Of a DNA stretch of 64,000 nt, positions 21,450-51,463 are shown one piece after another. Source of the DNA: Actinomycetes bacterium (GTDB lineage Bacteria; Actinomycetota; Acidimicrobiia; Acidimicrobiales; Ilumatobacteraceae); NCBI GenBank assembly GCA_025360105.1, contig JANYCT010000051.1:1-64000 (forward strand). The letters are read 5' to 3'. Position 1 is the first letter of the stretch, and every line of letters begins with the position of its first letter. The translations under genes and the position numbers were made by a program. The notes below the pieces were generated by a model. That model worked only from the letters and a program-made list of their open reading frames with translations, was not told the origin of the DNA and did no database searches.

Positions 21450-24400
21450 TTGTCGAAGAACATGCGGATGCACGAGCTCGCCAAAGAGCTCGGGATGACC
21501 AACGCTGAGATTATGGACCTCTCCAACGCCATGGGCGTTGGGGCGAAGAGCCATTCCTCAACCATCATCGAGCAGCAGGCCGACCGTTTGCGGCGCCGTG
21601 CGGAACGTGATGGTCTCACCCGGGCCCAGCAGCCCGAAGAAGCCAAGCCCGTGAAGAAGGGCGCTGCCAAGAAAGCTGCCGCTCCGAGCAAGCAGACCGA
21701 GGTCCCGGCAGCAGTTGAGGCGCCAGCGCCCTCGGCCCCCGAGGCCGCTCCGGCCAAGGCGCCGGTGGTCGCTTCCGAAGCGAGCGGCGATCAGGCTGGC
21801 GAGCGTGCCGTCGATGATGCCGCCGCGCCAGTGAAGAAGGCCGTCGCGAAGAAGGCCGCACCCCCGCGTGCCGCCGCTCCCGTCGAGGTCGATGCACCGA
21901 CGCCCACCGCGTCGGTTATTCCGGTGGTTGCTGTCGTCGAAAGCGTGGCCACGGTGGCGCCCGCTCCGCAGGCGGCACCGGCGGCTGCTCCAGTTGTTCA
22001 GGCCCCGCCGGCCGCCGTAACCAAAGCTCCGGCGGTGGCGCCCGCCGCTGCTGCTGCTGCTGCGGTGACACCGGTCGCAGCTGCGCCGACCGAACCGGAA
22101 CACCGTGTCATCTCGAGCGGTCGATCCACTGAGGCACCCCGCGCGTCGGCGGGTGTCGCTGCTCGTCCGTTGCCTCCGCAGGCGCCACCGACACCGGCCC
22201 AGCGACCACCATCGTCGGCGCCGCAGGGTATCCCCCCGTCGCGGCCGCCGGCCGGCCCCCCGCCTGCCCGCCCTGCATCGCCGTCGGGGAAGATCATTCC
22301 CCCGCCTCCCGGCGCAGCGCGCCCGAGGTCAGCGTCGGGCCTCCCCATTCCTCCGCCTCCCGGTAGTGCCCGTCCCGGCGCAGCCGGTGGTCCCGGCGCG
22401 CGTCCTGGCGGAAACAGCTTCTCGCCACGTCCCGGAGGTACGGGTGGCCCCGGCGGTGCACGCCCAGGCGGGCCAGGTGGGGCGCGTCCCAGTGGTCCTG
22501 GTGGGCCTCGTCCCGGTGGTGGATTTGCGCCGCGCACCGGTGGTCCCGGCGGCGCCCGTCCCGGTGGCGGGTTTCCTCCGCGTACCGGTGGTCCCGGTGG
22601 CGCCCCCTCTGGCGGTCCCCCCGGCAACACCGGCGGCCCGCGCCCCAGCGGCCAGCGTCGCGCCCCGCGCAAGAGCAAGAGCCGTCGTCGTCGTCGTGAC
22701 TTCAACGAGTTGCAGCCGCAGCTCACCGGCAGCTACACATCCAGCGATGCGCCGGTTCCCGATGGCACCATCATCATCGAGCGTGGTGTCTCGGCCCAGG
22801 AGTTCGCTCCGAAGCTGAACCGCACGGCAGCCGACGTCGTCCGCTTCCTGCTCAACAACGGTGAGATGATCACGGCAACGATGACCCTCGCCGACGAACA
22901 GATGGAACTGTTCGCGCTCGAAGTCGGGGCCGACCTGTTGCTGGTGGAAGCCGGCCAGCAAGAGGAGATGGAACTGCAGGCAATGTTCGACGACAGCGAT
23001 GACGACGACGAGACGCTGCAGGCGCCCCGCGCGCCCGTCGTCACCGTCATGGGACACGTCGACCATGGCAAGACCACGCTGCTCGACAAGATCCGCCACG
23101 CCAACGTGGTGTCGGGCGAAGCCGGTGGCATCACCCAACACATCGGTGCGTACAAGGTGATGACCGATGGTGGCCACGAGGTCACCTTCATCGACACCCC
23201 CGGTCACGCGGCATTCTCGAAGATGCGTGCCCGCGGCGCGCAGGTCACCGACATCGTGGTGCTCATGGTTGCTGCCGATGACGGCGTCATGCCTCAGACC
23301 ATCGAGGCCATCAATCACGCCAAGGCCGCCGATGTCCCCATCGTGGTCGCACTCAACAAGATCGACAAGGACAACGCCGATCCGCAACGAGTGCTCGCGC
23401 AACTCGCTGAACAGGAACTCGTGCCCGAGTCGTGGGGTGGCGACACCATCGTGGTCGAGATGGCTGCGAACCAGAACCTAGGTATCGACGATCTCCTCGA
23501 GCAGCTACACGCGGTCGCCGAACTCGAAGAACTCACTGCGAACCCCACCGGGCGGGCCAAGGGCATTGTGCTCGAAGCCAAGCTCGATACAGGTCGTGGC
23601 CCTGTGGCCACCATCTTGGTCGACAAGGGCACGCTCAAAGTGGGCGATCCCATCGTGGCCGGCGCCGCGTGGGGCAAGGTTCGTGCGCTCATTAACGATC
23701 GTGGCGAGCAGGTCAAAGAGGCTGGTCCGTCCACGCCCGTTCAGGTGCTCGGTCTCTCGGCCGTGCCGAATGCCGGCGACGAATTCCGTGCCGCTTCCAA
23801 CGAAAAGACTGCCCGCCTCGTTGGTGAGGCACGTGCCATTCGTGCCACGCTGCACAACCAACGCGGCGATGCCCGCGTTCAGCGCGGCGTGAAGCTCGAA
23901 GACATCTTCAGCCAGATCCAGGCCGGCGAAGTCGCCACGTTGAACATCGTGCTGAAGGCCGACGTGAACGGTTCGCTCGAAGCCGTCACCGAGAGCCTGC
24001 GTCGGCTCGAGCGTGAGACCGTCAAGCTCGCGTTTGTGGCCCGTGGCGTCGGTGGCATCACCGAAAACGACATCATGCTCGCGGCCACCACCAACGCCAC
24101 GCTCATCGGCTTCAACGTGCGCCCAGATCGCAAAGCACGCGAGATGGCCGCCAGCGAGCACGTCGAGATCCGTACCTACGAAATCATCTACAAGCTGCTC
24201 GAAGACATCGAGCGGGCGATGGTGGGCATGTTGGCGCCGGAGTTCGAAGAAGTGGTCACCGGCGAAGCCGAGGTCCGCGAAGTGTTCCGTGTACCCCGCA
24301 TCGGTGGCATCGCCGGTTGCTACGTGCGTTCGGGCACCATCACGCGCGGCACCAAGGTGCGCTTCTTGCGTGAGGGCGTCATCATCTGGAAGGGCAGCAT

Positions 24401-44876: not shown

Positions 44877-46037
44877 TCAGTGACTCGGTGTGCTGCCAGT
44901 TGCCGCGACCTCGCCCGCCTGGAACAGTCCGAGCGCACCCTTGCCCACGTTGGCAAACTTGTGTGTCACGATCGGGTACAGACCGGCTGCATCGAAGGTG
45001 AACTCGACGAACCCACCCTGTGCCGGCTGCAGATCAAGCGCCTGCGACCCACCGTTTCGAGAATCAGGTTGCAGGTCGTAGGTTCCTTCTTTGAACACTG
45101 TGTCGAAAATGGTCCCGACAATGTGGAACGACGAGTTCTCCGATGGGCCGTCGTCGACTACCCACACCCGCACCCGTTCGTTCGGCTCGACTCGGATTGG
45201 GCTGAACTTGTACTGGCTCACATAGCCGTTGAACACAACGGCGTCAGGCTGTTGCTTCTGCATCTTGGTGAGATCACCGGGTTGTCCCATCGGCCCGGTG
45301 TAGAGCTCGGACTGAACGATGAGGTACTCGTGGGCCACGGGTGCCAGCACCGGGGGATCGATGACGATCGCGCCGTACATGCCATTGCCGATGTGGTGCA
45401 GCGCCGGCGCCGTACCGCAGTGATACATGAACGCGCCGGCGTACTTGGCCTTGAACTGATACACCAGCGACTCACCCGGCTTGATCGAGCGCATCTCCAC
45501 ATTCCACGCAACCTTGCTGGCGTGGAAGTCGATGGAGTGTTCGATCTTGCCGTCATTGAAGAGTGTGATCGTGAACAGGTCGCCCACCTTGCCGCGCAGG
45601 GTCGTGCCGGGCACGGTGCCATTGAAGGTCCACATCTCCTGGGTCACGCCCGGGGCAACCTCGATGACCTTCTCGATCGCGTGCATCTCGATCTTGTGCT
45701 CGGTCGCACCGTCGGCGGGCTTCAGCGTCGGATCGTATGGCTTCCAGTCGGCCCCCGGCTTGGCGTTGAAGTCGATGACGGCATCAGCGTTCGCTGCCGG
45801 TTGGGTCGTGGCAGTGCTGGCACCTGAGCCCGAGCCACTCCCGCTCGAGCTGGAACCATTGTCCTTGCGGCCGAGCGCAATGGACGCCATCAAGAGCGCA
45901 ACGATGCCGATGATCGCAGCGATGCTCCACATCGTCCACCCGACCGGATCGCGTCGTTGCCTGCTCGGTGTGACCTCTCCGTCGTCTGGCTCCGCGATCG
46001 TTGAGCCGTCGTCGTTGACTGGGTGAAGGTCGCTCAT
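44877..46037 (-). CDS. Membrane-anchored two-domain multicopper oxidase (nitrite-reductase-like)
   Basis: The 386-residue protein has an N-terminal cytoplasmic tail, one membrane helix (about 34-56, MWSIAAIIGIVALLMASIAL), a Ser/Gly linker and two cupredoxin domains. Copper ligands are visible: IEHSIDFHAS (His167, His172), FMYHCGTAPALHHIGNGMYG (His206, Cys207, His214/215, Met220). The later SSFHIVGTIFDTV and PIVTHKFANVGKGALG hold distal ligands. The layout fits NirK or the two-domain laccase-like oxidases; no nitrate or nitrite genes are nearby. It likely faces outside the membrane. Confidence 0.85.
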   Translation of the reverse strand: MSDLHPVNDDGSTIAEPDDGEVTPSRQRRDPVGWTMWSIAAIIGIVALLMASIALGRKDNGSSSSGSGSGSGASTATTQPAANADAVIDFNAKPGADWKPYDPTLKPADGATEHKIEMHAIEKVIEVAPGVTQEMWTFNGTVPGTTLRGKVGDLFTITLFNDGKIEHSIDFHASKVAWNVEMRSIKPGESLVYQFKAKYAGAFMYHCGTAPALHHIGNGMYGAIVIDPPVLAPVAHEYLIVQSELYTGPMGQPGDLTKMQKQQPDAVVFNGYVSQYKFSPIRVEPNERVRVWVVDDGPSENSSFHIVGTIFDTVFKEGTYDLQPDSRNGGSQALDLQPAQGGFVEFTFDAAGLYPIVTHKFANVGKGALGLFQAGEVAATGSTPSH

Positions 46038-46137: not shown

Positions 46138-47097
46138 CTACACCGGCGGCGACTCGGCGAGTACCAGATCGATCTGGGCGCGTTCCTTGCCGCCCTCGCT
46201 GATCCAGATGGCGAGCAACACAATGGCGCCGCCGTACGCGTGGCGCAGATACAGGTGCTCGCCGACCACGAGCCACGAGAACACCACGCCCAACAGCGGC
46301 GTGAGGAACATCGACACGGCAACGCGATTCGACGGCTGGTTGGCGAGCACCGAGCACAGCAGCAGGTAACCAATCGCCGAGCCGACCCCGAGGAAGATCA
46401 CCGCCCACACGGCCTTGGGCTGCACGCCGGCGTCGCGGATCATGCCCTTGCCGAACACATCGAGCAGGCATGCGGGGATCACGAAGAACAACGCACCGAC
46501 TTGGGTGATGGAGGCAACGGCGAGTGGGTCCACGCCCTGACCGGCGCGGCGTACGAAGGCGGTGTAGATCGAGAACGTGACCACGGTGCCGAGCAGCAGG
46601 AGCATCGGCAGGATCGGTGTGCTCTGGCTGCCCTGGCTGATGACACCGGATGCAACCACGACGCCGCAGATGCCGACAACGAGCGCGAGCAGCGAGCGCC
46701 GCGAGGGTCGATCGCCCACGATGAGGGCGCCGGCGAGGGCAACACCGATGGGCTCCAGACCCACGATGATCGAGCTGATCGTGGCCGAGCCCTTGTCCAC
46801 ACCGACACCCAGGAACACCGCCATCAGGCCAATGCCGAACATGCCGATGAGCAAGAGCCGTTTGATGTGTCCGCGTGCTGACGGCAGGCGTTTGCGGGCG
46901 ATGATCACGAGCACGGTCGCTGCGATCAGGAACCGACCGAGGTTGGTAGTTGCCGGGCCGAAGCTTCGCCCCGCCACTTTGTAGGCGGGCATGCTGCCAC
47001 CGAAGAAGGTGACCATCAGCAACAGCGCGGCGCGCACGCCTATGCTCGCCGGCTCGACGGCCGGCTGCTTCGGCACCGTGCGAACGGGCTCAGTCAT
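46138..47097 (-). CDS. EamA-family transporter
   Basis: The 319-residue transporter has ten hydrophobic segments in two EamA repeats: LLMVTFFGGSMPAYKVAGRS, ATISSIIVGLEPIGVALAGA, then GSAIGYLLLCSVLANQPSNR and SMFLTPLLGVVFSWLVVGEH. It overlaps the ADH gene start side by 8 nt and is the last gene of the P450-SDR-ADH operon. It may export or import the pathway compound. The direction and the substrate are not readable from sequence. Confidence 0.88.
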   Translation of the reverse strand: MTEPVRTVPKQPAVEPASIGVRAALLLMVTFFGGSMPAYKVAGRSFGPATTNLGRFLIAATVLVIIARKRLPSARGHIKRLLLIGMFGIGLMAVFLGVGVDKGSATISSIIVGLEPIGVALAGALIVGDRPSRRSLLALVVGICGVVVASGVISQGSQSTPILPMLLLLGTVVTFSIYTAFVRRAGQGVDPLAVASITQVGALFFVIPACLLDVFGKGMIRDAGVQPKAVWAVIFLGVGSAIGYLLLCSVLANQPSNRVAVSMFLTPLLGVVFSWLVVGEHLYLRHAYGGAIVLLAIWISEGGKERAQIDLVLAESPPV

Positions 47098-48151
47098 TCG
47101 GGGTCACGACTGCTCTGCCTCGGAGGCGGCCGTGGTGCAGTGCGTCGTAGGCGTCGCCAACCTGTTGCATCGGAAACAAATCGGCGTCGCTACGAATGAG
47201 GCCCTTTTCGGCCAGACGCACGACCTCGTGCGCGTCGGAGACGCTGCTGCCCTGGAAGTTGATGACCTCGCCGTCGCGCGGCAGGCCGCCGTACCACGGT
47301 CGCTTCAGCGTGCCGCCGTTCGACCCGATGACCGCATAGGTGCCGTAGGGCTGCACCGCGCCGACACCCATGTCGATGGTTGCGTCGATGCCGACGAAAT
47401 CGAGTACCGCCGTGGCGCCCTCGCCGTTGGTGAGCCGTCGTAGCGCACCAGCGCTCTGCGCATCGACGCCGACCAGTGTGTGATGCGCCCCGACCTCGGT
47501 TGCGTACTCGAGCCGAGACGGGTTGTTGTCGATGGCAATCACGGTGGCAGGGCTGAGCGCACGAAGAATCTGCACGGCAAACGCTCCGAGTCCACCCGCG
47601 CCGATGACGACAGCGGTGGAACCGGGGGTGAGCTTATGCAGCACCTTGCGAACACCGTGATACGACGTTGCGCCAGCGTCGGTGAGCGGCGCGGCGTTGC
47701 GTGGGTCGAGCGTTCCGATGTGTACGACATCGCGAGGCGCGCGAGCGGCAACGAACTGGGCAAGGCCACCATCGCGTCCGTAACCCCGACCGGCGAGGCC
47801 ATGCGGACACGCACTGTCGTGACCGCGCAGACACAGCCCGCACACACCGCACGAACTCGGCGACACCAGTGCCACCGCCTGGCCGACATCGAATCCAGTG
47901 ACGTCAGCGCCGACGGCTGCGATCCATCCACCGACTTCGTGGCCGAGCGTGAACGGCATGTGCCAGCCGATCATCTCGCCGATGCTGGCGGGAATCTCCA
48001 TCATCGTCAGGTCGCTGTGGCACAGGCCGTTGCCGGCAACCTTGACGAGTACTTCGCCGACGCCGATGGCGGGGACATCGAGCTCCACGAGCTGGGGCAG
48101 CTGCTGCCATTCGAGCAGGCGATAGGCGAGCATCGTCGAGGGTGTGCTCAT
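47090..48151 (-). CDS. Zinc-dependent alcohol dehydrogenase
   Basis: The 353-residue MDR enzyme has the catalytic-zinc pair in GLCHSDLTMM and TLGHEVGGWI, the structural-zinc loop CGVCGLCLRGHDSAC, and the Rossmann motif VVIGAGGLGAFAVQIL. It should oxidise an alcohol (or reduce an aldehyde) with NAD. ATG 48151 overlaps the SDR stop, so it is coupled in the P450 operon; five more codons upstream (to 48166) are possible but lie inside the SDR. Confidence 0.92.
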   Translation of the reverse strand: MSTPSTMLAYRLLEWQQLPQLVELDVPAIGVGEVLVKVAGNGLCHSDLTMMEIPASIGEMIGWHMPFTLGHEVGGWIAAVGADVTGFDVGQAVALVSPSSCGVCGLCLRGHDSACPHGLAGRGYGRDGGLAQFVAARAPRDVVHIGTLDPRNAAPLTDAGATSYHGVRKVLHKLTPGSTAVVIGAGGLGAFAVQILRALSPATVIAIDNNPSRLEYATEVGAHHTLVGVDAQSAGALRRLTNGEGATAVLDFVGIDATIDMGVGAVQPYGTYAVIGSNGGTLKRPWYGGLPRDGEVINFQGSSVSDAHEVVRLAEKGLIRSDADLFPMQQVGDAYDALHHGRLRGRAVVTPND

Positions 48152-48921
48152 CGTGCGGCCGGCCAATCGGTTGGTCGCAATGCGGCGTCAGTGCCGCCGT
48201 CCATCACGATGAAGCTGCCCACGAAGAAGCCTGCAGCGGGGGAGAGCAGGTAGGCGAGTAGGCCGGCGACCTCGCCCGGTTGGCCGGGGCGTTGGATCGG
48301 AACCGGATACACCTCGCCCAGGCCGAGCACGAAGTCGATGCCGCCCTCGGTCATGGGTGTCTCGATGAGCCCCGGGGCGATGGCGTTGAGACGGATGCCC
48401 GAACCGATCCAGTCGGCACCGGTGGCCTGGCGGCGAACCCAGTGAGCGAGCGCCATCTTCGAGGCGGGGTAGCCACCCATCGGAGATGCCTTCGCAGCTT
48501 GGCGCGCGCCCGGTTCGTCGCCGGCGAGACACGCGTCGACGGCAGCGAGCGGAATGCCCATTTGTGCGGTGGTGCTGTTCGAACTGATCGCGACGGCGCT
48601 TGCGTTGGCGCCGCGCGCAAGGAGCGATCGCAAACCCCCGAGTGTCGAGACGGCACCGAAGTAGTTGATGGACACCACGAGTTCCTCGTTGGAACCATTG
48701 CTGCTGATGCCTGCTGCCGCGACGAGTCCATCGAGCACGCCGTTGCTGGCTGCGGAGACCTGCTCGACCATGGCGTCACGCCCGGCAGAGGTGGAGAGGT
48801 CAGCGATGACATCGGCATTGCGCACGTCGATGCCGATGACGCGGTGTCCGTTCGATTCGAGAAGCGTTCGGGTGGCCGCGCCGATGCCGCCGGCGGAACC
48901 GGTGATCGCGATCGTCCCCAT
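48148..48921 (-). CDS. SDR family oxidoreductase
   Basis: The 257-residue protein has IAITGSAGGIGAATRTLLES, VIGIDVRNADV, VAAAGISSNG in place of NNAG, and the catalytic GGYPASKMALAHWV. An insertion (ACLAGDEPGARQAAKASPMG) lies just before the active-site tyrosine, as in 3-alpha-hydroxysteroid or bile-acid type dehydrogenases. It starts 2 nt after the P450 stop. It probably oxidises the P450 product or its alcohol. Confidence 0.9.
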   Translation of the reverse strand: MGTIAITGSAGGIGAATRTLLESNGHRVIGIDVRNADVIADLSTSAGRDAMVEQVSAASNGVLDGLVAAAGISSNGSNEELVVSINYFGAVSTLGGLRSLLARGANASAVAISSNSTTAQMGIPLAAVDACLAGDEPGARQAAKASPMGGYPASKMALAHWVRRQATGADWIGSGIRLNAIAPGLIETPMTEGGIDFVLGLGEVYPVPIQRPGQPGEVAGLLAYLLSPAAGFFVGSFIVMDGGTDAALRPTDWPAAR

Positions 48922-48923
48922 GA

Positions 48924-50114
48924 TCAGGTGCCGATCAGTTGTAACTGGGCGGACTTCAACCCGAACACGAACGCATTCGGCATTTCCTCGACCGTGCCGT
49001 CGACCACCGTGAACGACTCGATGCGGCGGATGAACTCCTCGAAGAACGTACGGATCTCGAGCCGAGCGAGGGCAGCGCCAAGGCAGAAGTGCGTGCCGAA
49101 CCCAAACGCGATGTGATGGTTCGGTGTGCGGGTGATATCGAACCGCTCGGGGTCGGTGAAGTGCGACGGGTCGCGGTTGGCTGACGAGTACATCATCAGC
49201 ACCTGTGTGCCCGCAGGGATGAGGGTACCGTGCAGGTCGTAGTCGGTCGCGGCCACGCGACACATGTTGTGGATGGGCGTGACGTACCGGATGAACTCCT
49301 CGACCGCCACGGTGAGATCGGTGCCGCCCTTCAGCAAGGCCCACTGCTCGGGGTTGGCGTGCAGGTTGAGCAGCGTGCGCGCAATGACGGTGCGCGTGGT
49401 CTCTGCGCCTCCGTCGAGCAACAGGAGTGCGTCGGAGATCGCTTCGTCGATACCAAAGGCGTGACCGGGGATTTCGGCGGTGGTGTACACGGTCATCAAG
49501 TCGTCCATCGGGCAACCCTTCTTCTGCTCGTACAACCCCGCAGCGGCGACAGCGAACTCGATGGCTGCGTTCATGCCATCGTCGTTGAAGTAGCGCGGCC
49601 CGCCGCCGAGGGCGATGGTTCGCTCGGACCAGTCGCGCAGCTTCGGCCAATCGGCGTCGTCGAAACCGAGCAGGCGACCGATCATCAACGCGGGTAGGGG
49701 CGAGGCGAGGTCTTCGATGACCTCGACGCAGCCGTGCGCGGCGGACTTGGCGAGTGCACCGTCGATGAGGCCCGTGACGACCTCGCGGATGGCGGCTTCT
49801 TTGTCGGCAACTGCCTTGGGTGTAAAGCGTCGCGCAACGAGCGAACGGCGCAGCGAATGCAGCGGATCGTCGAGACCGATGATGGCCTTGTCAGCGGGCA
49901 GGTTGGGGCGATACCCGCCCTTGTTCTGGTCGCTGCTGATGAACACGTCCTTACGGCGCTCGATCTCGACGATGTCGTCGTATCGGGAAATGCCCCAGAG
50001 CTCGTTGGTCGAGTCCCAGTACGCCGGCTCGTTGTCGCGCATCCATGCATACGTGGCGTAGGGACTGTTGGCGTAAAAGGCGCCATCGAGCAGATCGATC
50101 GTTCTGGTGGCCAT
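48924..50114 (-). CDS. Cytochrome P450 (CYP142/125-like)
   Basis: The 396-residue P450 has the I-helix LLDGGAETTR (to residue 241), ExxR at Glu273-Arg276, and heme loop FGFGTHFCLGAALARLE with Cys344. The N-terminus LLDGAFYANSPYATYAWMRD resembles actinobacterial steroid-side-chain P450s, but the substrate is inference. The transcript appears leaderless (TACCAT 6 nt before ATG) and the promoter is covered by a palindrome, so this P450 heads a regulated four-gene operon. Confidence 0.92.
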   Translation of the reverse strand: MATRTIDLLDGAFYANSPYATYAWMRDNEPAYWDSTNELWGISRYDDIVEIERRKDVFISSDQNKGGYRPNLPADKAIIGLDDPLHSLRRSLVARRFTPKAVADKEAAIREVVTGLIDGALAKSAAHGCVEVIEDLASPLPALMIGRLLGFDDADWPKLRDWSERTIALGGGPRYFNDDGMNAAIEFAVAAAGLYEQKKGCPMDDLMTVYTTAEIPGHAFGIDEAISDALLLLDGGAETTRTVIARTLLNLHANPEQWALLKGGTDLTVAVEEFIRYVTPIHNMCRVAATDYDLHGTLIPAGTQVLMMYSSANRDPSHFTDPERFDITRTPNHHIAFGFGTHFCLGAALARLEIRTFFEEFIRRIESFTVVDGTVEEMPNAFVFGLKSAQLQLIGT

Positions 50115-50120
50115 GTCGCG

Positions 50121-50126
50121 ATGGTA
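50121..50126 (-). promoter_or_regulatory. -10 element of the P450-SDR-ADH-EamA operon
   Basis: TACCAT is 6 nt before ATG 50114. Its upstream end touches the operator at 50126-50144, so repressor binding would block RNA polymerase. Confidence 0.65.
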
Positions 50127-50144
50127 TCTGACGCGCCGTCAGAT
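50126..50144. promoter_or_regulatory. Palindromic operator of the P450 operon
   Basis: ATCTGACG-CGC-CGTCAGAT has perfect 8-bp arms and a 3-nt spacer, adjoining the -10 box. The shape suits a dimeric TetR-family regulator. The motif differs from the 39006-39075 array. Confidence 0.8.
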
Positions 50145-50173: not shown

Positions 50174-51463
50174 TCAGCTGTCGAGCACGCTGCCCGCAGG
50201 AACCAGCGTCGCATCGAAGAAGGCAAAGAATTCCTTGGTGGAACCCTTCAGGTATCGATTCGGACTACCGCCCATGCGCTTGTCGACGAAGTGCCCGGTG
50301 AGATTGCCGTTGTCGTCGGGACCGAAGGTGAAGAACACTGGCCACGTACCATTGATGTCGAGTTGCATCGCCTTGACACAACCAATGTTGATCAGTGACT
50401 GTGCGAGCTGCGTGGCGTTCACCTTGCCAACAAGTACGTAGGCGAGACGACCGTCGCCCATCACGCAGGCGGCCGATCGAGGCACGTAAACCGCGTTGCC
50501 GTAATCGGCTCCCCACCACACACCCTGATCAAGGCCCTTTTGAATCTGTGACTTGCCCTTGTCGACGATGAGGATGAGGTTCTGGCGCAGGCTGATCCAC
50601 GAACCGTCGTCGGTGAGATCTCGTCCGTATTCGCCCAGGGCAAGATGCCCATCGGTACCAACGGCCAAGGTTGCGTCGCCGTTCTTCAGCGGCTTCACGA
50701 CCACGCCTTCGGTCTTGTAGCCGCCTTTGATGTGTTCGAAGCGGAAGCCACCGTTCATCGCAGCGAGGAGTGCCGGTTGCAGTTCGGCGGGCACGCGATT
50801 CGAACGTCTCCAGCTGCCGCCGGGCTCTTCGGCACCGTTGAACAAACCGGCGCGTAAGTGCGTCTGATCGATCTCCACAACCGACGCCACGACCCCACCC
50901 GCGTCAGGCAACGGTCGAACGCTGGTTGCCCAAATGGCGTCATGCCCGCCAGCGCGGGCGATGGGGGTCCACTGACCCTCGGCGTCGAGTGCTGGAGTGA
51001 TGAGCGGGTTGATGGGCTTGGGCGCCACGGGGGCAGGACCTATGGGCACTACCGGAACCGTGGTAGGTGTGGGCGTGCCGGGCTGCACAGCTGAACCACT
51101 ACCAGCGACTGTGGTGGCTGTCGGTGCGGCGGCGAGGGCGGGTGCCGTGAGGTCAAGGTTCTTGGCCGGATCCTTCGAGGGTGGTGTGCTGTAGACGCGG
51201 GTTTCCATCCAGTCGATGAGGCTGCCCATGTGATGGTTGCGGCCCCAGGTGGCGATGCGCTGTGACGTCGTGTCGCCGTTGTCGTGGCCCACGTAGCTGA
51301 TGAAGGAAACGAGGTTCCACACGACGAAGATCGCGGCGAGCGATTTGGTGACGATCCAAAGATCGTGCATTTGTTTCTCGAACGGCGTGCGGACCTTCTC
51401 GCGTCGAGCGGTGCGGCGGATGCGCCGCTGCTCGCGACTCCATCGGCTCAGGAACTTACGCAT
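50174..51463 (-). CDS. Phosphodiester glycosidase (NAGPA) domain membrane protein
   Basis: The 429-residue protein has a basic cytoplasmic N-terminus (WSREQRRIRRTARREK), one membrane segment (about 38-58, WIVTKSLAAIFVVWNLVSF), a Pro/Thr-rich linker and an extracytoplasmic domain from about 170. The domain carries LLAAMNGGFRFEHIKGGY, LRQNLILIVDKG, YVPRSAACVMGDGRLAYVLV and AMQLDINGTWPVFFTF; this is the NAGPA/DUF2233 fold, which removes N-acetylglucosamine phosphodiester caps or acts on wall glycans. It starts at ATG 51463. The exact substrate is unknown. Confidence 0.85.
   Translation of the reverse strand: MRKFLSRWSREQRRIRRTARREKVRTPFEKQMHDLWIVTKSLAAIFVVWNLVSFISYVGHDNGDTTSQRIATWGRNHHMGSLIDWMETRVYSTPPSKDPAKNLDLTAPALAAAPTATTVAGSGSAVQPGTPTPTTVPVVPIGPAPVAPKPINPLITPALDAEGQWTPIARAGGHDAIWATSVRPLPDAGGVVASVVEIDQTHLRAGLFNGAEEPGGSWRRSNRVPAELQPALLAAMNGGFRFEHIKGGYKTEGVVVKPLKNGDATLAVGTDGHLALGEYGRDLTDDGSWISLRQNLILIVDKGKSQIQKGLDQGVWWGADYGNAVYVPRSAACVMGDGRLAYVLVGKVNATQLAQSLINIGCVKAMQLDINGTWPVFFTFGPDDNGNLTGHFVDKRMGGSPNRYLKGSTKEFFAFFDATLVPAGSVLDS

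Follow-up and report, generated by a model that had tools for sequence, protein, structure and literature searches.

The P450 operon and its promoter

The locus described here lies in a stretch of 64,000 nucleotides (the window) that forms positions 1 to 64,000 of contig JANYCT010000051.1 (assembly GCA_025360105.1), from an uncultured actinobacterium of the family Ilumatobacteraceae, order Acidimicrobiales. Four genes for a cytochrome P450, a short-chain dehydrogenase/reductase (SDR), a zinc-dependent alcohol dehydrogenase (ADH) and an EamA-family transporter follow a perfect palindrome. A sequence-only reading of the window took them for an operator-controlled operon and a compact route of its own. 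Comparison across 100 genomes indicates that P450, SDR and ADH probably form one transcription unit of a dispersed, steroid-type catabolic regulon under a TetR-type protein encoded elsewhere in the genome (TetR_C15) and the operator TCTGACG-N3-CGTCAGA. The features are as follows.

48924..50114, minus strand: cytochrome P450, nearest solved relative CYP142
48148..48921, minus strand: SDR, nearest solved relatives 3-alpha-hydroxysteroid dehydrogenases
47090..48151, minus strand: zinc-dependent ADH of the ADH-A (Rhodococcus ruber) type
46138..47097, minus strand: EamA-family transporter, last gene of the operon
50126..50144, no strand: operator, an exact palindrome ATCTGACG-CGC-CGTCAGAT of 8-3-8 architecture
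50121..50126, minus strand: TACCAT, -10-like hexamer of a putative leaderless promoter, read by eye and from the invariant pattern in eight promoters

The coordinates bear out the close packing that had been claimed: a 2-nt gap separates P450 from SDR, SDR and ADH overlap by 4 nt, and ADH and EamA by 8 nt. The palindrome is likewise exact; it ends 11 nt from the P450 ATG, within the 59-nt gap between P450 and a co-directional gene with a NAGPA domain (50174-51463). None of the four operon proteins matches an NCBIfam model above cut-off, and there is no ferredoxin gene within the operon.

Read on the coding strand, the hexamer TACCAT begins with the final T of the palindrome and ends 6 nt before the ATG. 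Neither a Shine-Dalgarno sequence nor a -35 box is seen by eye before P450 in the window. Across eight same-genus P450 promoters in a footprinting alignment, the pattern CGTCAG-n-TAC-nn-T-(6 nt)-ATG is invariant, which supports the earlier suggestion of a leaderless promoter touching the palindrome. Two of these promoters (genomes G001 and G008) keep the right half-site, TACCAT and the ATG spacing and have lost the left half of the operator, so the promoter does not appear to need the full palindrome. The pattern fits a leaderless promoter with its -10 element touching the operator and able to outlive operator loss.

Conservation of the gene order was predicted, and within the genus this holds for the three enzymes: P450-SDR-ADH is contiguous in eight of nine genomes, G002 having no SDR at that place. 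It does not hold for the transporter, which belongs to the operon only in the window's genome (G000) and in G007; with two of nine loci, EamA was rejected as a core of the route. The operator stands directly 5' of P450 in six of the eight testable genus genomes, with an exact core in G000, G007, G002, G005 and G004 and one mismatch in G003. The G006 promoter is outside this count because the locus is cut by a contig end. The G006 P450 orthologue itself (L068:9621-10764) falls into two frames that overlap and include a short repeat, owing either to a frameshift or to an error of assembly. Genes that overlap or lie in AT-rich stretches escape the gene caller, and such cases were rechecked by tblastn.

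The best match of the P450 in the PDB is CYP142 (260 bits, 39.7% identity over 375 aligned residues), and the steroid C26-monooxygenases CYP142 and CYP125 are its best solved matches. The customary border of a P450 family is 40% identity, which places this protein at the border of the CYP142 family; the SDR-ADH partner genes and the operator found here are not known from CYP142 loci. The SDR has just two strong matches in the PDB, both of them 3-alpha-hydroxysteroid dehydrogenases (171.8 and 162.4 bits, the next match reaching 56.9; 44.8% identity to 2dkn over 248 residues), from which it differs in standing in an actinobacterial operon with a P450 and a zinc-dependent ADH. The best solved relative of the ADH, R. 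ruber ADH-A, is a match that is not specific to steroids. Of the chemical sequence proposed earlier, hydroxylation, two dehydrogenations and transport, the enzyme order is plausible, with hydroxylation and then alcohol oxidation ahead of coenzyme A (CoA) activation; transport falls outside the conserved set.

A recurrent operator and a candidate regulator

The idea that the palindrome is remarkable by itself was rejected because 21 perfect 8-bp inverted repeats, their spacers 0-8 nt long, are present in the window; the operator motif occurs there once. What distinguishes it is recurrence. The panel of 100 genomes comprises G000 (3.89 Mb, 96.9% complete), eight genus mates and 91 genomes from outside the genus. 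With up to three mismatches, the 19-mer is found at 35 sites in G000 (five exact, eight with one mismatch, six with two and 16 with three), against three for a reversed control. The 17-mer core TCTGACG-N3-CGTCAGA, with at most one mismatch, occurs at 21 sites in G000 and at 13-25 in each of the eight other genus genomes, against none for the control throughout. Because the same sequence recurs genome-wide and controls match almost nowhere, the palindrome is more than a product of chance. The consensus of 29 distinct genus sites is gtWTCTGACG-N3-CGTCAGAWac. Copies had been expected elsewhere in the genome, and they were found, some of them near other catabolic genes. No description of the motif was found among the listed matches of searches in the open-access literature, nor in the text of PMC4482099.

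A tetR gene had been anticipated nearby; the candidate instead lies on another contig. Among 17 TetR_N matches in G000, two (TetR_C15 and TetR_C95, named after their contigs) fall within fetched stretches near operator sites. TetR_C15 (C15:557-1195) matches TetR_N at 26.3 bits (cut-off 24) and TetR_C_38 (PF19352) at 70.5 bits (cut-off 23.9), and a search of G000 with it returns only itself. Orthologues scoring at least 108 bits are present in 27 of the 100 genomes, the next score being 44. Presence lists were compiled by hand, and thresholds were set after the gaps in bit score had been seen (TetR 108 versus 44, IpdA 276 versus 141, P450 463 versus 330). Shared ancestry was reduced by taking one genome per family; p values otherwise ignore kinship.

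Outside the genus, 12 of the 18 genomes that have TetR_C15, and none of the 73 without it, carry at least five operator sites; for at least two sites the counts are 16/18 and 5/73. With one genome per family, at least two sites are found in 10 of 12 TetR_C15-positive genomes versus 2 of 27 others (p = 6e-6). In the family f1 outside the genus, TetR_C15 is present in exactly the six genomes of 52 that have at least five sites. The operator also precedes the orthologue, or the SDR-TetR operon to which it belongs, in G002, G016 and G075 (exact) and in G061 and G078 (one mismatch), with a weak site of two mismatches in G084. The remaining 21 of the 27 TetR loci have none upstream within the fetched flank (up to 1.5 kb); in G000 the contig begins inside the gene preceding TetR_C15. 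A segment SPATFYQYF is nearly invariant in 24 aligned orthologues, those of G005, G006 and G008 having been left out of the alignment.

Taken together, these patterns make the unlinked, TetR_C_38-type TetR_C15 the best candidate for the regulator. It is improbable, though not negligibly so, that the operator is genuine and is read by another protein, such as TetR_C95 or one of the 15 further G000 TetRs, while TetR_C15 merely travels with the genes. TetR_C95 lies two genes behind an operator-marked thiolase and is itself somewhat associated with the operator (4/6 versus 8/85). It was rejected as the best candidate because it has no orthologue in the operator-rich genomes G032, G045, G047 and G049, in all of which TetR_C15 has one; the exact correspondence in family f1 also argues for TetR_C15. 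This operon (L051:8414-10730, corresponding to G000:C95:38413-40729) joins the steroid-type thiolase gene and a cupin-like one to the gene of the second TetR, TetR_C95; its orthologues in G003, G004 and G005 read with one internal TGA.

Contigs were also searched with a profile of the TetR alignment. The best 80 loci, 587,625 bp in total and including some near-duplicates, come from Acidimicrobiia-type metagenome-assembled genomes (MAGs), from Streptomyces, and from MAGs labelled Myxococcota, Deltaproteobacteria, Pseudomonadales, Gammaproteobacteria and Halioglobus. Since PATFYQYF was among the peptide patterns by which they were picked, the identity of this helix among them is partly a product of selection. 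With at most one mismatch, these loci hold 53 operator sites, against none for the reversed pattern, and 42 of the 80 bear at least one: 14/23 from Streptomyces or Streptosporangium, 7/12 labelled proteobacterial or myxococcal, and 21/45 others. By eye, operons of the SDR-TetR and amidohydrolase-TetR kinds are seen among the neighbours, as are thiolase-like genes. Streptomyces loci (L239:6689-6766, L236:6395-6483 and others in L215-L240) often carry two near-operators about 50-75 bp apart, between acyl-CoA dehydrogenase-like and thiolase-like genes and 2-4 kb from the TetR gene. Four records (L168, L169, L177 and L198) are MAGs titled Bifidobacterium breve whose TetR is 45-61% identical to the present one; these titles look wrong.

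Operator-marked genes and ring C/D catabolism

Genes were read at 21 G000 sites. Of the 19 sites with no more than two mismatches, 18 were covered, leaving out C88:35549, which is inside a long open reading frame; of the 16 with three mismatches, three were chosen because they stand in front of genes. Among the genes so marked are those for SDRs, luciferase-like monooxygenases, amidohydrolases, acyl-CoA dehydrogenases, enoyl-CoA hydratases, acyl-CoA synthetases, a Rieske oxygenase and a Liv-type ABC transporter. The most informative site is at C38:14092, between an SDR gene (NF005893, 353 bits, cut-off 255) and one for an EchA20-like enoyl-CoA hydratase (NF005925, 434 bits, cut-off 260). The product of the next gene matches CoA-transferase alpha subunits in the PDB (6con, E 3.7e-99; 6co6, E 2.1e-96), and we take it to be IpdA. 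A CoA_trans-domain protein (30.7 bits) comes next, presumably IpdB from its position in the gene order, and then a FabK-like protein (TIGR03151, 243 bits, below the cut-off of 453). The order is taken to be echA20-ipdA-ipdB-ipdC, with names such as EchA20 and IpdB assigned from gene order. PMC5380842 attributes the opening of steroid rings D and C to EchA20 and IpdAB and calls IpdC FabK-like.

On contig C95 the operator precedes a thiolase that matches 'steroid 3-ketoacyl-CoA thiolase' (NF005889, 615 bits, cut-off 515). Weaker are the matches of two acyl-CoA synthetases, for which steroid-22-oyl-CoA synthetase is the best model but whose 716 and 656 bits stay under its cut-off of 900. The match of an acyl-CoA dehydrogenase to IpdE2 is likewise below cut-off (163; cut-off 450). 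Because the operator marks genes of the IpdABC/EchA20 type and a steroid-type thiolase, both the operator control and the steroid-like direction proposed for the operon gain support. The idea of a self-contained route does not survive: the operon would be one unit among about 20 operator-marked places.

The same link is seen across genomes. Of the 91 genomes outside the genus, 24 have an IpdA homologue (at least 276 bits), as do seven of the nine within it; the two in which none was found, G005 and G008, are 79% and 85% complete. Outside the genus, all 18 TetR_C15-positive genomes have IpdA, against 6 of the 73 others (p = 3e-14), and with one genome per family the figures are 12/12 and 5/27 (p = 2e-6). 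An operator lies within the fetched ipdA flank at 15 of 25 loci in TetR-positive genomes with up to one mismatch, and at 20 of 25 with up to two, versus none of five in TetR-negative genomes; the G003 locus does not extend far enough to tell. These sites mostly lie about 800-950 nt upstream, before echA20, and those of G078 and G084 are close to ipdA.

The operon's own enzymes follow the pattern. Outside the genus, P450 orthologues occur in seven genomes (57-68% identity by tblastn), all seven with IpdA, compared with IpdA in 17 of the 84 others (p = 4e-5). SDR homologues fall in IpdA-bearing genomes in 15 cases of 16, compared with IpdA in 9 of the 75 others (p = 3e-10). In these searches the best 26 (SDR) and 18 (P450) first-look candidates per genome were scored, and misses are possible. 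With one genome per family, all six P450-positive genomes also have the SDR. With few exceptions, then, homologues of P450 and SDR are confined to genomes that have IpdA. Together with the operator and TetR_C15 evidence, this makes the operon most probably one output of the steroid-type regulon. In G085, which has no TetR_C15, P450 (62%) and SDR (45%) homologues share a contig, within about 15 kb, with IpdA, IpdC and an IpdB-like gene; the stretch also holds acyl-CoA dehydrogenase-like genes. G093 has P450 and SDR homologues 11 kb apart on one stretch that contains no IpdA, and in G063 IpdA and IpdC are near only a 39% P450.

A proposed KstR2-like switch and its alternatives

The closest known counterpart is the KstR2 regulon for methylhexahydroindanedione propionate (HIP) and steroid rings C and D in Mycobacterium and Rhodococcus, which the present system resembles in setting a putative TetR-operator pair over genes of the echA20-ipdA-ipdB-ipdC type and a FadA6-type thiolase. 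PMC3068626 places one KstR2 site of M. tuberculosis in the interval from Rv3549c to Rv3550, and the equivalent divergent SDR/echA20 promoter carries the operator here (C38:14092). The sites themselves differ: the same paper gives AnCAAGnnCTTGnT as the KstR2 operator, with three motifs per genome, against TCTGACG-N3-CGTCAGA and 21 sites here. An exact AnCAAGnnCTTGnT occurs at one of 30 ipdA loci, where it is downstream, and none is upstream of ipdA, on which ground control through a KstR2-type operator was rejected. The scanned G000 stretches have no exact site and only scattered one-mismatch matches, and phmmer searches of the PDB with TetR_C15 and TetR_C95 returned no chain named KstR2 among the matches. 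The regulon is best described as KstR2-like in function, not as KstR2. EdcR, the repressor of oestrogen catabolism in Caenibius tardaugens, is also TetR-type and steroid-linked, with a putative palindrome overlapping the -10 box; its proposed operator, TnnCnnTACnAnTnGTAnnGnnA, is unlike the present one (PMC8700777).

For binding, repression, ligand, induction, chemistry and substrate, we infer the following scheme. (i) A TetR_C15 dimer would bind TCTGACG-N3-CGTCAGA just upstream of, and touching, the P450 -10 element. (ii) The bound protein would block RNA polymerase at the leaderless promoter. (iii) A catabolite of a steroid-like substrate would release it, perhaps a CoA thioester as for KstR2, whose release by HIP-CoA is stated in PMC6678751. 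(iv) The P450 would hydroxylate the skeleton. (v) The SDR, which is like 3-alpha-hydroxysteroid dehydrogenases, and the ADH would oxidize hydroxyl groups. (vi) The products would pass to CoA activation, beta-oxidation and ring openings of the EchA20-IpdAB-IpdC type, induced by the same switch.

Several observations weigh against a steroid-type regulon under TetR_C15. The link between TetR, operator and IpdA is one of co-occurrence, not of binding, and operator association was profiled for two of the 17 G000 TetR_N proteins (TetR_C15 and TetR_C95). Two TetR-positive genomes, G071 and G084, have no operator site at up to one mismatch, and 38 of the 80 relatives' TetR loci have none within the fetched flank. 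The operator before P450 is lost in G001 and G008, and none stands directly in front of the seven P450 orthologues outside the genus. With one genome per family, the association between P450 and TetR_C15 is unclear (4/6 versus 8/33, p = 0.06). Finally, KshA_C (PF19298) has no match in G000 at E up to 0.001, and none in the genus mates G001, G006, G007 and G008.

This last result bears on the strongest alternative, which we regard as unlikely though deserving of attention: that the regulon degrades another alicyclic or terpenoid class, its IpdABC-like enzymes opening a hydrindane or similar bicycle with no steroid precursor in the cell. KshA_C reaches at least 90 bits in 11 of the 100 genomes, four without an IpdA match (G005, G018, G020 and G058) and seven with an IpdA match (G004, G016, G062, G065, G078, G079 and G082), while 11 of the 24 IpdA-positive genomes outside the genus have no KshA_C match at all. 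Of the five KshA_C-negative genomes of the genus, four have an IpdA match and G008 has none; in the same genus, G004 and G005 exceed 90 bits. Also in favour of this alternative are the many operator-marked luciferase-like monooxygenases and amidohydrolases, which to our knowledge do not belong to the canonical steroid route. It has to contend with the strong IpdA, EchA20-like and steroid-type thiolase matches, with nearest solved relatives of P450 and SDR that are steroid-acting by name, and with the role of IpdAB, IpdC and EchA20 in steroid C/D-ring breakdown (PMC5380842). IpdABC-type genes without a KshA match mean that the lineage is equipped for rings C and D while the marker for the upper part of the 9,10-seco route is missing; half-degraded steroids, another entry route or a non-steroid bicycle may each account for this. 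The terpenoid or steroid-like alcohol originally envisaged keeps its steroid-like direction through the operator targets, and the classical sterol route lacks its KshA match. No mention of Acidimicrobi was found in passages of PMC5790920 and PMC4810484.

Improbable, in our estimate, is a private acquisition of the P450 operon at genus level, placed under a pre-existing operator and serving an unrelated oxidation such as detoxification, outside ring degradation. Contiguous P450-SDR-ADH was found only within the genus, none of the seven outside P450 orthologues has an adjoining ADH orthologue (G016 has a 30% ADH-like gene nearby), and the ADH match points to no steroid. Against such an origin, the presence of P450 and SDR homologues follows that of IpdA from family to family, they occur together in all six P450-positive families, and in G085 they lie near ipdABC. 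For all the abundance of perfect 8-bp repeats in the window, it is highly improbable that the palindrome is one of chance origin or a promoter element with no regulator of its own, given the 21 genomic copies against none for the control, the promoters that do without its left half, and the strong association with one TetR.

The larger find would be the candidate TetR-operator pair for steroid-type catabolism. A wider proposal is offered tentatively, as a possibility that we would not yet favour: that the TetR_C_38-type repressor and its operator, as yet undescribed, are in wide use among Acidimicrobiia as the master switch for ring catabolism of the HIP type and have relatives in Myxococcota, Gammaproteobacteria and Streptomyces, so that KstR2's job falls to another protein and another site. 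Lineages without KshA might then follow a lower-pathway lifestyle, with P450-SDR-ADH channelling hydrindanes, or other skeletons that are not of the 9,10-seco type, towards the opening of rings C and D. Should the cross-phylum link be true, the operator could list catabolic genes without an assigned role in many genomes. For the present locus, an isolated P450 operon becomes a testable unit of a regulon with a named candidate regulator and operator, in a group of bacteria of which few have been cultured, and IpdABC-type genes without a detectable KshA raise the question of whether half-degraded steroids or another ring system serve as food.

Some neighbouring features of the window complete the description. 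The gene with the NAGPA domain, a phosphodiester glycosidase domain, has a homologue 5' of P450 in G007 and G002 and not at the other fetched genus loci. Two exact matches to TNNAACNNGTTNNA, a KstR-like core, are at 22701 and 40279 and may be due to chance. Downstream of EamA, at 44877-46037, lies a gene for a multicopper oxidase whose best NCBIfam match, below cut-off, is copper-containing nitrite reductase; a multicopper oxidase gene also lies downstream of the operon in G007, G008 and G006.

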